Below, piece by piece: positions 37,990-63,214 of a stretch of 64,000 nucleotides of DNA (its first letter is position 1; every line of letters starts with the position of its first letter). The DNA is from Candidatus Gastranaerophilales bacterium (GTDB taxonomy: Bacteria; Cyanobacteriota; Vampirovibrionia; Gastranaerophilales; Gastranaerophilaceae): positions 1-64,000 of the forward strand of contig CALVEL010000001.1 in NCBI GenBank assembly GCA_944326565.1, given 5' to 3'. The translations under genes were made by a program, and so were the position numbers. Under the pieces are notes generated by a model that saw only the letters and a list, made by a program, of their open reading frames with translations, made no database searches and was not told the DNA's origin.

Positions 37990-38501
37990 AAAAAATAGTT
38001 ATATTTTCATTTTTATTTTTTATACCGGCATGTGCATTTGCATCTGGAGTTTTTAATTATCCGATTACAGCAAAAGATGCAGCAGAAAAGTTGCCTGAAT
38101 TGAACAGTATTGAATGTACTTTCGAGCAAGAAAAAATATTTAATAATAAAACGCTTAAATCCGGCGGTGATTTTAAATTTTTAAAAGATAGAGGTGTTAT
38201 ATTTGAAACTTTATATCCTATAAAATCGGTCTCTTCCTATACAACTGATCAAAATAAACAAATCAATGATATAATCACAGGGATTGCTAATAAAAATTAT
38301 TCTTTTATAAATAAAAATTTTAATATTTTTTATATGATGGATTCAGGGAATTGGACTTTTGCTCTTAGACCAAAGGAAAAATCTCCGACATCTTCACAGC
38401 TTGAAAGTATTACAATTTATGGTAAAAATTATATAAAAAAAATTGATATAAAAACCAAAAACGGCAGTAGTACATCAATAAATTTTAATTGCAGGATATG
38501 A
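37980..38501 (+). CDS. LolA-like periplasmic carrier, ApeL-like
   Basis: 173 aa. Signal peptide MFLKKIVIFSFLFFIPACAF with cleavage near FAS. The mature part has the LolA pattern: LNSIECTFEQEKIF near 41, SGGDFKFLKDRGVIFETLYP near 60 and ITIYGKNYIKKIDI near the end. LolA-fold proteins carry acylated molecules across the periplasm, so here it may ferry the polyene lipid to the outer membrane. Its stop overlaps the exporter start as ATGA. Confidence 0.78.
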   Translation: MFLKKIVIFSFLFFIPACAFASGVFNYPITAKDAAEKLPELNSIECTFEQEKIFNNKTLKSGGDFKFLKDRGVIFETLYPIKSVSSYTTDQNKQINDIITGIANKNYSFINKNFNIFYMMDSGNWTFALRPKEKSPTSSQLESITIYGKNYIKKIDIKTKNGSSTSINFNCRI

Positions 38502-40594
38502 AGAAAATAGTTTTTTTTAGAATTTTATTTATTTTAGTTTTAGGGATAATTGCTTTATTCACTTTTTTAAATCCTAAAAAAGTTGAGACCAATTTACTGA
38601 AAGCATTTTTTACAAACGGTGTGCAAGATGAAATTTTGGTTGATTTGAGCGGAAAATATTCTTCAAATATCAATGTACTTTTTGAAAGCGAGAATTTAGA
38701 ACTTTTAGAAAGTGCAAAAGAACATTTTCAAGAGGAAATTGATAAACAAAATTTTCATATAGAACAAAATGATCCGCAAAAAATTCTTGAATTTTATGAA
38801 AAGTATAAAAATAATCTGCTCTCAAATAAAGATTATGAACTTTTAAAATCGGGGAATTATGATGAAATTTCTCAAAAAGCTCTAAATAATTTATATAATC
38901 CTTTAGGATTTTCAATTCTGCCATTTGAGGAGGATCCGTTTGGTTTATTTTCAGATTTTATATTTAATTTGGGGAATTCTCAAAATATAAACACTAAAGA
39001 CGGGAAATATTATGAAGTAATAAATTTAAAAGTAGATGATGATATTGCACTCTCACCAACTTTGACTAACAAAGCGGTTGAAAAACTTATTGAAATACAA
39101 AAATCTTATCAAAATAATGAGCTGAAAGTATATCTTACAGGTGCTCCTGTCCATGCTTATTATGCAAGTGCAAAGTCAATTAATGAAATTAATTTAATCT
39201 GCATAATTTCGTTAATTTTTGTGGGGGGATTAATCTTTTGGTACTTTCGTTCTTTAAAAATTCTAATACCTGTCCTTGTGAGCCTTTTGGTTGGAATAGG
39301 AGCTGGGTTTTCTATCACGTCTGCAGTTTTCCCGTCAATACATATTTTAACTTTTGTATTTTCGACAACGTTAATTGGTATTTGTGTTGATTATTCATTG
39401 CATTACCTGATGGAATCCGATTTGAAAAAAATAATAAAAAGTCTAACGGTTGGAATGTTATCAACAGTTTGTGCGTTATTAATATTGTTTTTTTCAGGAA
39501 TTGAATTGTTAAAGCAAATTGCAATTTTTACATCAGCCGGGCTTATTACGGTCTATCTTTTTGTAATTTTGTTTTATCAATTGTTGCCTCAGCAAGTTTC
39601 ACGAGAAAAATTTGATTTAAAATTCAATAGAAGATTGTTGATAATTATTTTTCTGATAATATTTGCAGGGGTATTTAAAATCCATTTTGATGATGATATA
39701 AGATCAATGTATAAACCTTCAAATGAAATGTTACAGGCAGAAAAACTTTATCATGAGGTAACTGATAAAAATTCAAATACTTCTTTTGTAATTATAGAAG
39801 GTGACAATCTTCAGGATATTTTGAATAAGGAAGAAAAAATATCTGAAAAATTGTCGAATAATAATATTTCTTACCAAGCTCTTAGTAAATTTTTGCCATC
39901 AAAAACTAGACAAAAAGAGAGTATAATTTTACAAAAAAATCTTTATGAAAAAAAGTTGAGTGATTTTAAAGATTTTCTTACAAAAAAAGATATTGAGACT
40001 TTAAAAATTTTGCATGTAGAATTTTTGAATGAAGATATTTTACAAAAAATTCCTCAGCTTAAAGATTTTATAATTGATGAAAATCATACAATTATGATAG
40101 TATATGATATGCAAAATCCATTGTTATTGGATAGTTTTGACGGTGTGCGATATATAAATTTGCCTGTTGAAATATCAGCAAAAATAAAAAATATCAGAAT
40201 ATCCGTATTAAAAGTTCTTTTGCCTATATTTATACTTTTATACTTAATTTTGGGTGGAATTTTTTCATTCAAAAACGCTCACAAAATAATACTCCCTTCT
40301 ATTATCGCAAGTTTATTTGCAATATCTTTTATAAGCATTTTCCAACCGTTAAATCTATTCCATGTGCTTGCAATATTTTTGATAACAGGATTTGGGCTTG
40401 ATTATTCTGTTTTCAGGTTTAACGGATCAAAAAAATCCAATGATGCCGTATTAATTTCTTGTATTACAACGGTATTTTCATTTTCATTACTTGCATTGAC
40501 AAGTTTCAAACTAATAAGCTCGTTAGGACTTGTCCTTGCTGTCGGTCTTTTGACTTCGTATATTTTAAGTGTTCTTTTGATATCAAAAGAATGA
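38498..40594 (+). CDS. MMPL/RND-like exporter, ApeM-like
   Basis: 698 aa from ATG 38498 (the frame also has a TTG at 38489 without a ribosome site). One N-terminal helix, then two periplasmic blocks and two groups of about five membrane helices (~225-370 and ~565-698). The duplicated MMPL layout is clear, including TTLIGICVDYSLHYLMESD near 293 and ITGFGLDYSVFRF near 630, with the Asp of helix 4 in each half. It should move the lipid-linked product out of the inner membrane. Its last 193 bp are antisense to the PPTase gene. Confidence 0.85.
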   Translation: MKKIVFFRILFILVLGIIALFTFLNPKKVETNLLKAFFTNGVQDEILVDLSGKYSSNINVLFESENLELLESAKEHFQEEIDKQNFHIEQNDPQKILEFYEKYKNNLLSNKDYELLKSGNYDEISQKALNNLYNPLGFSILPFEEDPFGLFSDFIFNLGNSQNINTKDGKYYEVINLKVDDDIALSPTLTNKAVEKLIEIQKSYQNNELKVYLTGAPVHAYYASAKSINEINLICIISLIFVGGLIFWYFRSLKILIPVLVSLLVGIGAGFSITSAVFPSIHILTFVFSTTLIGICVDYSLHYLMESDLKKIIKSLTVGMLSTVCALLILFFSGIELLKQIAIFTSAGLITVYLFVILFYQLLPQQVSREKFDLKFNRRLLIIIFLIIFAGVFKIHFDDDIRSMYKPSNEMLQAEKLYHEVTDKNSNTSFVIIEGDNLQDILNKEEKISEKLSNNNISYQALSKFLPSKTRQKESIILQKNLYEKKLSDFKDFLTKKDIETLKILHVEFLNEDILQKIPQLKDFIIDENHTIMIVYDMQNPLLLDSFDGVRYINLPVEISAKIKNIRISVLKVLLPIFILLYLILGGIFSFKNAHKIILPSIIASLFAISFISIFQPLNLFHVLAIFLITGFGLDYSVFRFNGSKKSNDAVLISCITTVFSFSLLALTSFKLISSLGLVLAVGLLTSYILSVLLISKE

Positions 40595-41070
40595 GAGCTT
40601 GCAATAGACAGCATATAATCAGGCAGAAGTTTTATTGAAATTTTTGAATTGGGACTTTCTTGGAGTTTGATTTCAGCTTCATATTCAGTCCAAAATCTGT
40701 AGAATGTCTCTGCATTTTTTTGAATTGGGTTAAGTTTGTAATACTCAAAGATTTTTTCAAAATTTCTTTTTTTCATAAATTCAATATCAGCTCCGATATT
40801 TTCATAATCGAATGCTATTAATATGATATCGTTGCTGTGTGAAATGCTAAAATGCAGTTTACTATTCAAGAAATACGGTTTCTTGTTTTTTATTGAAATC
40901 TCTAAATTATTTTTTTTGTAAAATTTTTCTGCGATATTTCTAACAAGAAATCTGCCTATAGCATATTCTTTAAGCCTTTTGGGTGATTTGTAGTTATTGC
41001 CGAAATTTTTAATTATCCATTCAATTTCGTTTTGTTGAAAAATTTTATAATTAACGAAAAATATATCCAT
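40402..41070 (-). CDS. 4'-phosphopantetheinyl transferase (Sfp/AcpT type)
   Basis: 222 aa from ATG 41070 (TATTAT then 6 bp; no ribosome site); the longer frame to 41106 adds nothing conserved. Core motifs: LKEYAIGRFLVRNIAEKFY near 38, LHFSISHSND near 72, IGADIEFMKKR near 93 (Mg-binding Asp/Glu) and FYRFWTEYEAEIKL near 120. It converts apo-ACP to holo-ACP, needed for both ACPs in this cluster. The family normally ends near LPDYMLSIAS (~155). Here the frame runs ~64 more codons antisense inside the exporter gene, an unusual tail. Confidence 0.82.
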   Translation of the reverse strand: MDIFFVNYKIFQQNEIEWIIKNFGNNYKSPKRLKEYAIGRFLVRNIAEKFYKKNNLEISIKNKKPYFLNSKLHFSISHSNDIILIAFDYENIGADIEFMKKRNFEKIFEYYKLNPIQKNAETFYRFWTEYEAEIKLQESPNSKISIKLLPDYMLSIASSHSFDIKRTLKIYEVKRPTARTSPNELISLKLVNASNENENTVVIQEINTASLDFFDPLNLKTE

Positions 41071-41084
41071 GCTAAAATAATAAC
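41071..41084. promoter_or_regulatory. 14-bp divergent leaderless promoter (PPTase/methyltransferase)
   Basis: The entire spacer between divergent start codons is GCTAAAATAATAAC. Plus strand: TAAAAT then 6 bp then ATG 41085. Minus strand: TATTAT then 6 bp then ATG 41070. The two -10 boxes overlap by 2 bp, and there is no room for ribosome sites. Same geometry as 53251-53264. Confidence 0.6.
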
Positions 41085-42164
41085 ATGGTAATCGAAAAAT
41101 CTGCAAAAATTAAATACAGAAGAAATCATAAAAATAAATTGTCAAAAGTAGAGGCATTATCAAGTGCTCAAAAGTTAGCTTTTGCACCTTTTACTTTTCA
41201 AGCAGTCGGGGCAATGATTGATTTGGGAATTTTGAAATTCTTGGATAATAATTCATCTAGTATAGAAAGTATTATCAAAAATTGTAAAGTTTCAAAATAT
41301 ACAGCTATTACGCTTTTGCAGGTTGGAGTATATTCTGAAATTTTGGAAAAGTCAGATGGATTATATTCACTTACTCCTTTAGGTGAATGCTTTTTGCATG
41401 ATGAGATGACTGTGAAAAATTTTAATTTCATGCGTGATGTCTGCTATCTTGGAGCAAATGAACTTACAGAGTCTTTTTTAAAAGAAAGTCCTTGCGGACT
41501 TCAAAAGTATTTTGTCGATTCTGAGACAATTTATCCTCATGTACCTAATCTTCCTGAAAAGGCAAGAAAATCTTGGTATGATTTTGATTATTTTTATTCT
41601 GATAATTGTTACGAAGATGTCTTGAAGATAATTTTCAAAGATGATATAAAAGAAATTTTTAATATAGGCGGGAATATCGGAAAGTTTGAAAAAACTTGTA
41701 AAAAGTATCATCCGGATTGTAATTTGAATATAATCGATTTGCCTGTAAATAAAGATATGGCTGAGAAAAATGTAAATTCTGATAATTTTAAATTTTTTAG
41801 CTGTGATCTTTTATCAGAAGAAAAACTTCCTCCAATTTCAGGAGCTGTTTTTATGAGCCAATTTTTGGATTGTTTCTCAGAAAACCAAATTTTAAAGATT
41901 TTCGAAAAAATAAAATTATCAGCTAAAATCGGAACAAAAGTATATATACTTGAACCTATAATAGATAATCAGGAATTTGCAGGAGCTGGATTAGCGATAT
42001 CGCATATTTCTTTGTATTTCACTTGTATGGCAAATGGATGCAGCAAAATGTTTACAGAAAACGAGATTACATCGTTAATTGAAAAATCCGAACTAAATAT
42101 TGATAAAATCCATACAAATGTCGGTATGCACTGCTATACATTATTGGAGTGCAGCATAAAATGA
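41085..42164 (+). CDS. SAM-dependent O-methyltransferase of the polyene cluster
   Basis: 359 aa. N-terminal winged-helix dimerisation domain (~30-110, LAFAPFTFQAVGAMIDLGIL and YSLTPLGECFLHD), then a class I methyltransferase fold: IFNIGGNIGKFEKTCK (SAM loop, near 195), LNIIDLPVN (acidic residue, near 218) and MSQFLDCFSENQI. This is the plant-type O-methyltransferase layout. APE clusters encode such an enzyme, which could methylate the aryl head group. Leaderless start. The stop overlaps the next start as ATGA. Confidence 0.82.
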   Translation: MVIEKSAKIKYRRNHKNKLSKVEALSSAQKLAFAPFTFQAVGAMIDLGILKFLDNNSSSIESIIKNCKVSKYTAITLLQVGVYSEILEKSDGLYSLTPLGECFLHDEMTVKNFNFMRDVCYLGANELTESFLKESPCGLQKYFVDSETIYPHVPNLPEKARKSWYDFDYFYSDNCYEDVLKIIFKDDIKEIFNIGGNIGKFEKTCKKYHPDCNLNIIDLPVNKDMAEKNVNSDNFKFFSCDLLSEEKLPPISGAVFMSQFLDCFSENQILKIFEKIKLSAKIGTKVYILEPIIDNQEFAGAGLAISHISLYFTCMANGCSKMFTENEITSLIEKSELNIDKIHTNVGMHCYTLLECSIK

Positions 42165-49808: not shown

Positions 49809-49957
49809 AAAGGAGTTGGAAATGCAGACTATGATTGAAATTATGGGGGGGGGGGGCACCCGAAAATAAGCTCCTGGTTGGTAAAAAAATAAACCGATTG
49901 CATGCTGACCATAAAAATAATAAAATGAATATTATATTAGGTAATAAAGAGGTCAGT
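49809..49957 (+). promoter_or_regulatory. Repeated prepilin leader, copy A (G12 tract, two SD-pairing hairpins)
   Basis: Copy B is at 63066-63214. The copies align without gaps and differ at about 11 of ~150 positions. Elements in order: AGGAGTT (49811-49817), a 15-codon ORF, G12 (49845-49856), AGCTCCT (49869-49875) that pairs with the first element, then CTGACC (49905-49910) that pairs with GGTCAG (49951-49956) and would mask the AGAGG ribosome site. In both stems the A/B differences are G-T wobble exchanges that keep pairing. The layout looks like an RNA control element. Confidence 0.65.
49822..49869 (+). CDS. 15-codon upstream ORF in prepilin leader A
   Basis: MQTMIEIMGGGGTRK, preceded by AAGGAG at a good distance. 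The G12 tract encodes the Gly run. With 12 G the frame stops at 49867; losing one G (or gaining two) would fuse it in frame to the prepilin. Same peptide pattern in copy B (MQAMIEILGGGGTRK). Translation is inferred only from the ribosome site and conservation. Confidence 0.35.
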   Translation: MQTMIEIMGGGGTRK

Positions 49958-50817: not shown

Positions 50818-51510
50818 TTATTTTTTAAACTGGATAAACGGGCTTTTTTCTTCAGCAAAAACAATATCCACTTTATTTTTCAAGAGTTTTTCCAAAACTT
50901 TTAAGACTAAAATTTCACTTTCAAAATGTCCGATATCAAAAAGTACAATTTTGCTTTCTAATGCTGTATGAAATTTTAAATCCCCAGTTACAAAAGCATC
51001 AGCTCCATCTTGTTCTGCTGTTTCGATAAAATCAGCTCCGCTTCCTGCACAAAAGCCTATTTTTTGAATTTTTTCGATATTTTTGTTATTTACGAAACGT
51101 AAATTTGGTGAAACTTTTGCAAGTTTTTTGGTAAATTCTTCAACAGATATCGGATTTTGTAATTCTACATATCTTACAAAACTGTTTTGACTGTTTTTCG
51201 TAAATCCAAGTTCTTTAATTAATTCATCTGTTGTCCCGCCTTCTGTCAAATCAAGGTTTGTGTGGGCTGAAAAAATATTTATATTTTTATATTCAAATGG
51301 TATGAAAAAAAGCGGGTGATGACTGATTATCATATCACAATTTTTCATTTTTGCCTGAGATACAATATCATCAGTCACAGTCAAGGCGAGCATTACTTTT
51401 TTTATTTCGGTTTTGTTATTTTCGACTGCAATTCCTGAACAATCCCATTCTTCTGCAAGTTCCGGAGGGGCAAAACTATTTAATATGGCATAAATTTCCG
51501 ATTTTTGCAT
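50818..51510 (-). CDS. Nif3-like dinuclear metal protein
   Basis: 230 aa. Family motifs: EEWDCSGIAVE near 20, MIISHHPLFF near 60 (metal His pair), FSAHTNLDLTEGGT near 80 and GDLKFHTAL near 175 with a final GHFESE. Nif3/YbgI proteins bind two metal ions in a toroidal hexamer; a hydrolase role on nucleotides has been proposed. ATG 51510 has GGAGAAG upstream within the end of coaBC (35-bp overlap), so the two are co-translated. Confidence 0.9.
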   Translation of the reverse strand: MQKSEIYAILNSFAPPELAEEWDCSGIAVENNKTEIKKVMLALTVTDDIVSQAKMKNCDMIISHHPLFFIPFEYKNINIFSAHTNLDLTEGGTTDELIKELGFTKNSQNSFVRYVELQNPISVEEFTKKLAKVSPNLRFVNNKNIEKIQKIGFCAGSGADFIETAEQDGADAFVTGDLKFHTALESKIVLFDIGHFESEILVLKVLEKLLKNKVDIVFAEEKSPFIQFKK

Positions 51511-52693
51511 ATACTTCTCCGATTATTTTTTCTGCAATCACAGATTTGTTTTGTTTTTCAAATTTTTTAACATCTAAATTTTTGTCTATTAAATATACTT
51601 CATTTTCGTCTGATGAAAAACCGATATCTTTTCTACTGACATCATTTGCAACTATAAAGTCACAACCTTTATTTTTGATTTTTGCTTTTGCATATTCAAT
51701 CAAATTTTCTGTTTCTGCACAAAAGCCTACAATTGTAGTTGAAGAATTCAAGCTTGCTTTTTTGTCACAAAGACTTTTTAAAATATCCGGGTTTTTGACT
51801 AATTCAAGAGTTATTTCATTAGTATCTGTTTTTTTAATTTTTTGCTCATTAAAGTTTTTTATCCTAAAATCAGCGACAGCTGCTGACATAAATATGTAAT
51901 CGGAATTTTCAAATTCATCAAATACAGCTTGTTGCATTTCTAAAGCTGATTTCACTTTTATTACTTTGTAAGGCTTATTTACATCTTTAGTTGTAATTAA
52001 AACGGTTTCTGCACCTTGTGAATATGTACAATCGGCAATAGAAATACCCATTTTGCCTGATGAATAATTTGAAATATACCTCACAGGGTCAATATCTTCG
52101 ATTGTACCACCTGCTGTGATTACTACTTTTTTATCTGCTAAAAATTTATTTTTACAATTCAAAATTTCAACAGTTTTATCAAAAATTTTATCAATAGATG
52201 CAAGACGTCCTTCTCCTGTTGCGCCGCAAGCCAAAAATCCTGATTCAGGAGCAATATTTATAAAACCGTTATTTATAAGTTTTTTTAAATTTTCTTGAAT
52301 AAACGGATTATTCCACATATTGCAATTCATAGCGGGAGCTAGGATTATCGGCTTTTTGAATGCAGCAACGATTGATGTCAGAAGGTTGTCACAAATCCCG
52401 TTTGCTATTTTTGAAATAGTATTTGCTGTAGCTGGGGCGATTACAAATATATCGGCTTCGTCAGCATAAGATATATGTTCAGGTTTAAAGTTATCAATTT
52501 CAAACTGTTCTATCGCGACATCATTTTGACTTAAACTTTGCAATGTAAGTTTTGTCACAAAATTCAGCGCATTTGGCGTGCAGACCACTTTAACGTTAGC
52601 GTTTGCTCTTTTATACATTCTTATGAGTTCACAAATTTTATAAGCTGCAATTCCGCCTGTTATTCCAAGTAGAATGTTTTTACCGCTTAGCAT
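51476..52693 (-). CDS. coaBC: Phosphopantothenoylcysteine decarboxylase / synthetase
   Basis: 405 aa bifunctional coenzyme A enzyme. CoaC flavoprotein half at ~1-180: GITGGIAAYK near 9, VIAPATANTISKIANG near 83 and PAMNCNMWNNP near 118 with Cys in FLACGATGEGRLA near 153. CoaB half at ~185-405: VVITAGGTIEDIDPVRYI, SNYSSGKMG and AAVADFRIKN. It makes 4'-phosphopantetheine from phosphopantothenate and cysteine, the group also placed on ACPs. It overlaps gmk by 7 bp. Confidence 0.95.
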   Translation of the reverse strand: MLSGKNILLGITGGIAAYKICELIRMYKRANANVKVVCTPNALNFVTKLTLQSLSQNDVAIEQFEIDNFKPEHISYADEADIFVIAPATANTISKIANGICDNLLTSIVAAFKKPIILAPAMNCNMWNNPFIQENLKKLINNGFINIAPESGFLACGATGEGRLASIDKIFDKTVEILNCKNKFLADKKVVITAGGTIEDIDPVRYISNYSSGKMGISIADCTYSQGAETVLITTKDVNKPYKVIKVKSALEMQQAVFDEFENSDYIFMSAAVADFRIKNFNEQKIKKTDTNEITLELVKNPDILKSLCDKKASLNSSTTIVGFCAETENLIEYAKAKIKNKGCDFIVANDVSRKDIGFSSDENEVYLIDKNLDVKKFEKQNKSVIAEKIIGEVYAKIGNLCHIK

Positions 52694-53250
52694 TTTTGCA
52701 TTTCTCCTTTTATTACTTTTTCAAGTTTATTTATTGCATCATCTAAGTTATCATTTATTATTTTGTAATCAAATTTTTCGGCACGTTCAAGCTCAATTTT
52801 TACCTGCTGAAGCCTTTTTTGTATCGTCGCTTCATCTTCGGTATGTCTGCCTCTTAGTCTATTTTCAAGAGCTTCATATGATGGCGGACAAATGAAAATT
52901 AAAACAGCTTCAGGCATTTGTTTTTTTACTTGAAGTGCACCTTGGGTATCTATTTCAAGAATTATGTCTTTGCCTTCTGCAAGACATTGATTTATATATT
53001 TTTTCTTTGTGCCGTAAAAATTCCCTGCAAATTCAGCCCATTCTAAAAATTTGTTATTATCTATGCAAGATTTAAATTCTTCTTTTGAAATAAAAAAATA
53101 GTTTATACCATCAATTTCTCCCGGACGAGGAGATCTTGTAGTACAAGAAATTGAAAGCATAAAATTTGGATTTTTTTCTAAAAAACCTTTTAATACGGTA
53201 CCTTTTCCGACTCCGGATGAGCCGGACAATACAAATAATTTTTTGTTCAT
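52687..53250 (-). CDS. gmk: Guanylate kinase
   Basis: 187 aa from ATG 53250, directly 6 bp after TATAAT and without a ribosome site (leaderless); the ATG at 53265 would lie outside that transcript. It phosphorylates GMP to GDP. P-loop LSGSSGVGKGT near 7, GMP-binding TTRSPRPGEIDGINYFF near 38, lid RLRGRHTEDEATIQKRL near 133. It opens the gmk-coaBC-nif3 operon. Confidence 0.95.
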   Translation of the reverse strand: MNKKLFVLSGSSGVGKGTVLKGFLEKNPNFMLSISCTTRSPRPGEIDGINYFFISKEEFKSCIDNNKFLEWAEFAGNFYGTKKKYINQCLAEGKDIILEIDTQGALQVKKQMPEAVLIFICPPSYEALENRLRGRHTEDEATIQKRLQQVKIELERAEKFDYKIINDNLDDAINKLEKVIKGEMQKC

Positions 53251-53264
53251 ATTATGATTATACA
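53251..53264. promoter_or_regulatory. 14-bp divergent leaderless promoter (gmk/histidine kinase)
   Basis: Spacer ATTATGATTATACA. Plus strand: TATGAT then 6 bp then ATG 53265. Minus strand: TATAAT then 6 bp then ATG 53250. The -10 boxes overlap by 2 bp, and no ribosome site fits on either side. Confidence 0.6.
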
Positions 53265-54455
53265 ATGAATATTTCCTATGAAAAAAATATTTGTATATTT
53301 TTGAAAAAACTTAATACAATATCAAATCCAAAGGAGTTATCTAAAACAGTTTTGTCGGGGTTATTAAGTATTACACATGCTCATGCAAGTTGTTTTTGTA
53401 TATTGAGTAGTTCTGGAAATCATATTGATATAAAACAGTATTTATTTGCAGAAGGTAAAAAAAATAATAAAAGACTGGTGCATCTGATTGAAAAAATATC
53501 TAAAGTCGGTGTCGATATGCTGACTAATAATTTTGAAAATGAAGATATAATCGAATATCTTAATTCGATTTCGAAAGATCAGGTTATAATTGAACCAATT
53601 TTTTATAAAAATACCGTCTTAGGATTTGTTGCTCTTGTACATAAAAATAAAAATTTTCATAAGAAGAATAATACGATTATTGAAATGCTTATGGAGTCAG
53701 TAAACTCTAAAATGGAAATAATTTCTCTAAATGACGAGTTAAAAAGGACAAATCAAGAAAAGGTACAATTCTTAGCAAGTATTTCACATGAGTATAAAAC
53801 ACCGCTCAATTCTATAATTGGTTTTTCTGATATGTTAAAAGCCGAGCTTGCAGGTAGTGAAAATTACAAATATATTGATAACATCTCTAAAAGTTCAAAA
53901 TTTTTATTAAGTTTGATACAGGATATACTTGATATGGCAAGGTCTGAGTATAAGCCTTTAGAATTGAAATATGAAACGTTCAGACCAAAAGATGTTATAA
54001 AAGATATTATTTACAGTTTTGAAGAGATAGTTAAAGAAAAGAATATAAAATTTAGCTATACAATGATGGATGTAGAAATAATTGCAGATTTAAAAAGGTT
54101 TAAGCAGTTGATATTTAATTTAATTTCAAATGCTTTAAAATTTAATAAAGTAGGCGGAAAAATTGTAATAGTTACCTATGTAGATGAGAATAAAAATTAT
54201 GTTTTTGAAATTAAGGATTCAGGAGATGGAATAAGAAAGAAAGATTATGACAAGATTTTCAATTTCTTTTCACAGGTAAATCGTAACAAACTAAAGCGTC
54301 AACAAGGCTCAGGTGTAGGACTTGCATTATGTAAAGTTATAGCAAATGCTCACCATGGAGATATTGGTTTTAAATCAAGATTGAATAACGGAAGTACTTT
54401 TTGGTTTAGTATTCCGCAATATGGCTGTGATGATACTATGTACATTGAATTTTAG
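53265..54455 (+). CDS. Soluble sensor histidine kinase
   Basis: 396 aa from ATG 53265; the longer frame runs antisense inside gmk. Residues ~15-150 look like a GAF-type sensor, followed by a short coiled coil. Kinase core: FLASISHEYKTPLNSIIGF (H-box near 175), NLISNALKFN (N-box), KDSGDGIRKKD (G1), QGSGVGLALCKVIANAHHGD (G2). No membrane helix, so it senses a cytoplasmic signal. No regulator is beside it; the regulators at 5952 and 6610 are possible partners. Confidence 0.9.
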   Translation: MNISYEKNICIFLKKLNTISNPKELSKTVLSGLLSITHAHASCFCILSSSGNHIDIKQYLFAEGKKNNKRLVHLIEKISKVGVDMLTNNFENEDIIEYLNSISKDQVIIEPIFYKNTVLGFVALVHKNKNFHKKNNTIIEMLMESVNSKMEIISLNDELKRTNQEKVQFLASISHEYKTPLNSIIGFSDMLKAELAGSENYKYIDNISKSSKFLLSLIQDILDMARSEYKPLELKYETFRPKDVIKDIIYSFEEIVKEKNIKFSYTMMDVEIIADLKRFKQLIFNLISNALKFNKVGGKIVIVTYVDENKNYVFEIKDSGDGIRKKDYDKIFNFFSQVNRNKLKRQQGSGVGLALCKVIANAHHGDIGFKSRLNNGSTFWFSIPQYGCDDTMYIEF

Positions 54456-63067: not shown

Positions 63068-63214
63068 AGGAGCTGGAAATGCAGGCTATGATTGAAATTC
63101 TGGGGGGGGGGGGCACCCGAAAATAAGCTCCTGAGTGGTAGAAAAATAAACCGATTGCATACTGACTATAAAAATGGTAAAATGAATATTATATTAGGTA
63201 ATAAAGAGGTCAGT
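63066..63214 (+). promoter_or_regulatory. Repeated prepilin leader, copy B (G12 tract, two SD-pairing hairpins)
   Basis: Copy of 49809-49957 at a constant offset of 13257. AGGAGCT (63068-63074) pairs perfectly with AGCTCCT (63126-63132); G12 lies at 63102-63113. CTGACT (63162-63167) pairs with GGTCAG (63208-63213) through one G-T wobble, masking the AGAGG ribosome site of ATG 63215. It begins inside the end of the methyltransferase gene (its AAAGGAG overlaps that stop). Confidence 0.65.
63079..63126 (+). CDS. 15-codon upstream ORF in prepilin leader B
   Basis: MQAMIEILGGGGTRK after AAAGGAG. With 11 or 14 G instead of 12 it would read through in frame into the prepilin. Ends at the base where the pairing element AGCTCCT begins, so a translating ribosome would disturb the first hairpin. 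Confidence 0.35.
   Translation: MQAMIEILGGGGTRK

Follow-up and report, generated by a model that had tools for sequence, protein, structure and literature searches.

A symmetric 14-bp spacer between gmk and a histidine kinase gene as a probable two-way promoter of two leaderless genes in Gastranaerophilaceae

Bidirectional promoters generated by symmetry of the -10 element were reportedly described by Warman et al. in 2021. That such promoters are known in E. coli, as the initial annotation of the DNA studied here had noted, is established in the literature (PMC12825309, PMC10268837), and their opposite starts lie 7-25 bp apart (Warman et al. 2026, PMC12825309; Middlemiss et al. 2023, PMC10268837). 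The separation between starts in E. coli is usually 18 bp, followed by 10 and 23 bp, with -18T opposite +1A and with -11 and -7 coinciding (PMC12825309; PMC10268837), and basal activity is too low for competition between the two orientations to matter (PMC12825309). The TANNNT leaderless genes of Deinococcus-Thermus and Actinobacteria constitute another related system, in which a -10 box lies about 6 nt before the ATG and no -35 element is needed (PMC12340547; Zheng et al. 2011, PMC3160421; PMC3898074); in a word search, "divergent" and "bidirectional" were absent from PMC12340547 and "divergent" was not found in PMC3160421. Overlapping divergent promoters are also found at lysG/lysE of M. tuberculosis, in a 108-bp intergenic region with an LTTR operator, where one of the starts is leaderless under lysine (PMC5648196). 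Both -10-symmetry promoters and TANNNT leaderless genes are already established, and a search of the open literature found no description of -10 symmetry combined with leaderless initiation.

The window, i.e. the whole 64,000-nucleotide stretch of DNA analyzed (31% GC), belongs to a genome of 1.87 Mb in 14 contigs (G000) from genus g1 of family f1, the genera being numbered and g20 being the sister genus. Among named records, those closest to it that have the kinase are Candidatus Gastranaerophilales MAGs, which NCBI classifies under Candidatus Melainabacteria. Judging from sequence comparisons, the 14-bp spacer between gmk and a histidine kinase gene in this window is probably a symmetric bidirectional promoter from which both genes would be expressed as leaderless messages. 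The features of the locus are as follows.

53248..53267, no strand: predicted two-way leaderless promoter unit CAT-ATTATGATTATACA-ATG (gmk start, 14-bp spacer, kinase start), 14 bp kept in nine genera
52687..53250, minus strand: gmk, guanylate kinase, 187 aa (PF00625, 1e-53)
53265..54455, plus strand: histidine kinase, 396 aa (Pfam HisKA and HATPase_c)
53253..53258, plus strand: rightward kinase -10 box TATGAT, followed by N6 and ATG; T, A, A and T invariant in 30 orthologous 14-bp spacers
53257..53262, minus strand (read 53262..53257): leftward gmk -10 box TATAAT, followed by N6 and ATG; invariant in all 30 spacers
53265, plus strand: predicted kinase transcription start, first mRNA base (A of AUG), from the TATAAT-N6 spacing and the -1 pyrimidine preference of leaderless genes
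53250, minus strand: predicted gmk transcription start, first mRNA base, from the same two features

The spacer ATTATGATTATACA occupies 53251-53264, between the gmk start codon (53250..53248, minus strand) and the kinase ATG (53265-53267, plus strand). The initial annotation had placed the two start codons 14 bp apart, with TATGAT-N6-ATG reading rightward, TATAAT-N6-ATG reading leftward and the -10 boxes overlapping by 2 bp, and every coordinate agrees with the sequence to the base, positions 53257-53258 being common to the two opposite-strand hexamers. The assignments of the flanking genes to gmk and a histidine kinase were upheld by Pfam, and both start codons are supported, since M1 of the kinase does not vary among five orthologues representing four genera and the 14-bp start-to-start gap is kept across genera. 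It had also been claimed that no ribosome site can fit, and indeed no Shine-Dalgarno-like sequence occurs upstream of either ATG at this site. The two-way pattern CATNNTANNATNNTANNATG has two matches in the window against 0.01 expected from 100 dinucleotide shuffles of the window, so that chance is ruled out for the match at gmk/kinase. The gene downstream of gmk (51476-52693), which overlaps the gmk end, is presumably coaBC-like, an assignment made from family knowledge. The histidine kinase (53265-54455) appears to be an orphan, as no receiver domain was found in it and no neighbouring response regulator in the list of open reading frames. A second, divergent guanylate kinase gene with 39-47% identity to the gmk of the window is located elsewhere in four g10 genomes (G022, G059, G086, G111) and in G046.

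The other pattern match in the window lies at a second divergent gene pair, which is spaced by 14 bp in genera g1 and g17.

41068..41087, no strand: second two-way 14-bp site CATGCTAAAATAATAACATG, found by pattern match
40402-41070, minus strand: 4'-phosphopantetheinyl-transferase-like (PPTase-like) gene; weak Pfam match, below cut-off
41085-42164, plus strand: O-methyltransferase, the rightward gene of this site

The PPTase-like reading frame overlaps, tail to tail and by about 190 bp (40402-40594), the end of a 701-aa membrane-protein reading frame on the plus strand (38489..40594), and its orthologue in G003 has equal length and the same C-terminal end.

In common with the -10-symmetry promoters, the gmk/kinase site has overlapping opposed -10 elements, and each start faces, on the complementary strand, a base that belongs to the promoter of its counterpart. 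Unlike in E. coli, the implied distance between starts is 15 bp (if the RNAs begin at the A of both ATGs) rather than 18, 10 or 23 bp, the hexamers share -8/-7, T-15 takes the place of -18T opposite the start (T-15 together with G-14 in g20), and both RNAs would be leaderless protein-coding messages. As the 18/10/23-bp register is not absolute in a class that spans 7-25 bp, the gmk/kinase site may be regarded as a variant that is still within it. The site also resembles the TANNNT leaderless genes, in which a -10 box about 6 nt before the ATG drives a leaderless mRNA: on each side a -10-like hexamer is centred about 10 nt from the start at a fixed distance, with no Shine-Dalgarno sequence. However, those genes are described in one direction, whereas in the present lineage the motif occurs together with its mirror image, with an extended -10 in g20. 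The lysG/lysE promoters likewise overlap divergently, but they are neither symmetric nor doubly leaderless. No recognizable -35 box is present at gmk/kinase, the positions concerned reading TACAAA (right) and TTTTTC (left) by eye.

In the proposed mechanism, the two -10 hexamers would face away from each other with a central AT common to both, and RNA polymerase would bind the spacer in either orientation. As each -10 ends exactly 6 nt from its ATG, a normal initiation distance, RNA would start on the A of AUG, giving leaderless mRNAs of the gmk operon leftward and of the histidine kinase rightward, and polymerase bound one way round would be expected to block binding the other way round. On the opposite strand, the -1/+1 bases of each start would double as positions -14/-15 of the facing promoter; in sequence, the complement of 53265 is T-15 of the gmk promoter and the complement of 53250 is T-15 of the kinase promoter. 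This reciprocity would be only partial at gmk/kinase, being limited to the T-15 that is present by necessity. The TG of an extended -10 at -15/-14 is absent on both sides (TA rightward, TT leftward), and with A or T at -14 the site would therefore rely on its two strong -10 boxes.

Genome-wide evidence for leaderless initiation was sought in samples of G000 (864 kb, 766 called genes) and of the g20 genome G067 (494 kb, 444 genes, 47% GC), with starts assessed by start-independent offset profiles, orthologue starts and coding-score-only calling. Of the 766 G000 genes, 17 have a TATAAT separated from the start by exactly 6 nt, whereas other offsets yield 3 on average (P about 2e-8). Shine-Dalgarno-like sequences peak at their usual position; as both peaks occur in one gene set, the lineage appears to use leaderless and Shine-Dalgarno modes side by side. 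The peak is stronger in G067: 61 of its 444 sampled genes are preceded by TANNAT-N6, the average for other offsets being 5. The placement of TATAAT exactly 6 nt before the ATG in G000 and g20 thus reads as a clear leaderless signature. A pyrimidine occupies -1 in 41/46 TANNAT-N6 genes versus 178/353 Shine-Dalgarno-led genes of G000, and in 49/61 versus 52/127 of the respective genes of G067, a preference expected of an initiator if RNA begins at the A of AUG; the kinase itself has A at -1, not a pyrimidine. Examined for -35 elements, the TATAAT context table showed TTG to be weakly enriched over the genome as a whole but not at gmk/kinase. The one-way leaderless promoters of G067 (n=45) follow the pattern T-19 T-18 T/C-17 R-16 T-15 G-14 N TANAAT N5 Y ATG, which by its letters is an extended -10 of the TRTGN type.

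The kinase adjoins gmk in 13 of the 14 g1 genomes searched, with a spacer of 14 bp every time, and the 14-bp gmk/kinase spacer is distributed over nine genera of the family (g1, g2, g7, g11, g14, g17, g20, g22 and g27). Rare variants have 17 bp (g10; L247, L248) or 19 bp (L042). In the symmetric 17-bp forms (L124-L127 of g10, L247, L248) both -10 boxes are found at N9 and their overlap is gone, which implies 3-nt leaders on both mRNAs. Eleven of the 14 columns are invariant in the 30 orthologous 14-bp spacers, the variable ones being positions 2, 5 and 6. Positions 5 and 6 correspond to -10 and -9 of the rightward box, typically the two positions under the weakest constraint in a -10 element.

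Genomes without the kinase provide a control, namely 22 that lack it but keep ATTATA near the gmk start. The gmk box is retained in all of them, and the rightward box (TANN completing it) is lost with its gene, being present in 31 of 35 genomes with the kinase versus none of the 22 without it (Fisher 4e-12, a value that ignores relatedness and, given the shared ancestry of species, overstates independence). The four kinase-bearing exceptions all belong to g10 and have the 17-bp form, with a TATACT of their own at N9. The kinase is both present and absent within genera g2, g7, g20 and g27, and the association between box and kinase does not reflect one inherited event, since the gmk tree requires eight changes of the kinase label, of which at least six fall on well-supported branches. 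In some distant relatives, gmk has a Shine-Dalgarno-like leader (e.g. g24, CAT-TAATCCTCC) or an ATTATA farther off; nearer relatives have a leaderless gmk and no kinase, and others have both genes. A leaderless promoter of gmk may thus be older than the two-way form. Four kinase-less g8 genomes (L123, L129, L131, L139) keep ATTATACAATGAA or ATTATACTATGAA beside gmk, some of them reaching a stop after few codons, and this sequence could be either a relic of the kinase start or a piece of the gmk promoter.

Two-way sites are widespread in genus g20. G067 (1.5 Mb) has 21 different 14-bp sites against 0 in the reversed control, and G093 (57% complete) and G032 have seven and three, respectively, with differing sequences and again a control of 0. 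Reading frames of at least 67 aa extend from both ATGs at 13 of the 15 g20 loci opened, L180 being one-sided and L192 doubtful; the pairs include dnaX/LD-carboxypeptidase, plsY/HTH protein, PadR/MlaE, glycosyltransferase/YdjC and gmk/kinase. When starts were picked from coding scores only, a gap of exactly 14 bp separated 7 of the 63 divergent pairs of G067, and all others were at least 22 bp apart; as some contigs were sampled for holding sites, this fraction is biased, the sharpness of the 14-bp value being unaffected. The consensus of 31 two-way g20 sites is CATG-N-TANNATNNTA-N-CATG, and the extended -10 that gmk/kinase lacks is found here, 55 of the 62 half-sites having G-14/C-1. Of the two-way promoters, 14/16 contain the reverse -10 element T-4A-3, compared with 3/45 of the one-way leaderless promoters.

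These sites suggest a rule for the spacer. A start separation of 15 bp would suit the extended -10 (TRTGN) of the lineage, and in g20 the self-complementary CATG would supply C-1 and the start codon when read in one direction and, when read in the other, the TG element of the facing extended -10. As this CATG reciprocity holds only with starts 15 bp apart, a peak at a spacer of 14 bp is to be expected. There is an even chance that the lineage has adopted, as a standard module, a two-way form of its leaderless extended -10 promoter. In such a module, CATG would provide one gene with its start codon and initiator and the facing gene with its extended -10, the spacer would thus be fixed at 14 bp, and any one-way leaderless promoter would need few mutations (C-17, T-4, A-3) to gain a second leaderless gene, already in frame, on the opposite strand.

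Of 97 genomes of the family, 63 contain the two-way pattern with spacer 14, at 143 places in all, compared with 25 places for the reversed control, and outside the family a class-wide search detected no excess. The corresponding counts for other spacers are 39/20 for 16 bp, 21/35 for 12 bp and 53/20 for 17 bp, so that as alternative symmetric registers these three show little or no enrichment, at most about 2.7-fold. Twenty family sites outside g20 were opened, and long reading frames lie on both sides in seven of them and on one side only in 13; the family-wide count therefore overstates true gene pairs, and part of the excess appears from the sequences to consist of one-way leaderless genes that happen to have CAT in the extended -10. 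The check on spacer lengths suggested by the initial annotation gives a peak at 14, which is striking in the g20 pairs and is also seen in the family census; a general peak is not visible in G000 alone, where one call among 141 divergent pairs was found in addition to the PPTase pair missed by the caller. Two-way pairs at 14 bp are rare in G000, amounting to two in the 864 kb sampled, with one further pattern match elsewhere in the genome. In several genera, rarA/mgsA-like genes (L167, L175 and similar loci) start at a near-palindromic 14-bp site where the ATG on the far side begins a frame of just four codons, and in g26 and g36 (L168-L170) such a gene has a true partner on the opposite side.

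The N6 enrichment, the tracking of the kinase by its box and the 14-bp peak together support the initial proposal that one symmetric sequence serves two leaderless genes. An unlikely alternative is that the site is used by gmk alone, in which case the kinase would be expressed from within gmk and the rightward TATGAT would simply reflect AT-rich symmetry. The spacer is AT-rich, and the gmk box is older and more constant, with ATTATA persisting near the gmk start in genomes without the kinase; however, the T and A positions of the rightward box, which serve the kinase alone, never vary where the kinase is present and are missing from 22/22 genomes without it, and g20 repeats the same pairing at many unrelated gene pairs. 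Leadered mRNAs, starting farther upstream within the opposite genes and translated without a Shine-Dalgarno sequence, appear rather improbable. Such genes may exist, as many G000 genes have neither a clear Shine-Dalgarno sequence nor a clear -10 at N6, yet the sharp N6 peak of the -10 and the -1 pyrimidine are expected only if RNA begins at the ATG.

The near-palindromic form of the sites, their 20-bp length, which is common for operators, and the CATG-flanked consensus common to the g20 sites would also suit an operator for a dimeric regulator, in which case the divergent pair would be regulated and its promoters would merely overlap the dyad. This reading is very improbable, because one-way leaderless promoters conserve the same positions (TG, TANAAT, Y-1) and no further letters are conserved, the partner genes are diverse and mostly housekeeping (dnaX, plsY, mlaE, gmk), and the dyad has a fixed position relative to both start codons. 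With a two-way promoter as the preferred reading, the spacer would be the smallest divergent arrangement seen here, 14 bp accommodating two promoters and, with the start codons, two translation starts. It would tie an essential nucleotide-metabolism gene to a sensor kinase via one polymerase-binding site in nine genera. The rule that the start codon and initiator of one gene form the extended -10 of the other offers a testable reason for a spacer of 14 bp, in a register unlike the 18 bp of E. coli. Genus g20, with about 20 sites in a genome, may be a natural system for studying the choice of orientation by polymerase and the birth of divergent genes, and in annotation a 14-bp mirror promoter would fix both start codons exactly.

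A separate observation concerns 16 tracts of 11-14 G in the AT-rich G000 genome, two of them on the plus strand of the window (49845-49856 and 63102-63113) and 14 more in the 864 kb sampled. The corresponding genes look like a putative phase-variable prepilin-like family, mostly off and each one slip from on, although assembly errors in the G tracts are possible. Most tracts lie in near-identical 5' cassettes, AGGAGCTGGAAATGCAGACTATGATTGAAATTAT-G12-CACCCGAAAATAAGCTCC, with which type IV prepilin-like genes begin. In the assembly, only 3 of the 16 frames read through (266-303 aa), whereas 11 would open to 241-274 aa at one G fewer and two at one G more.
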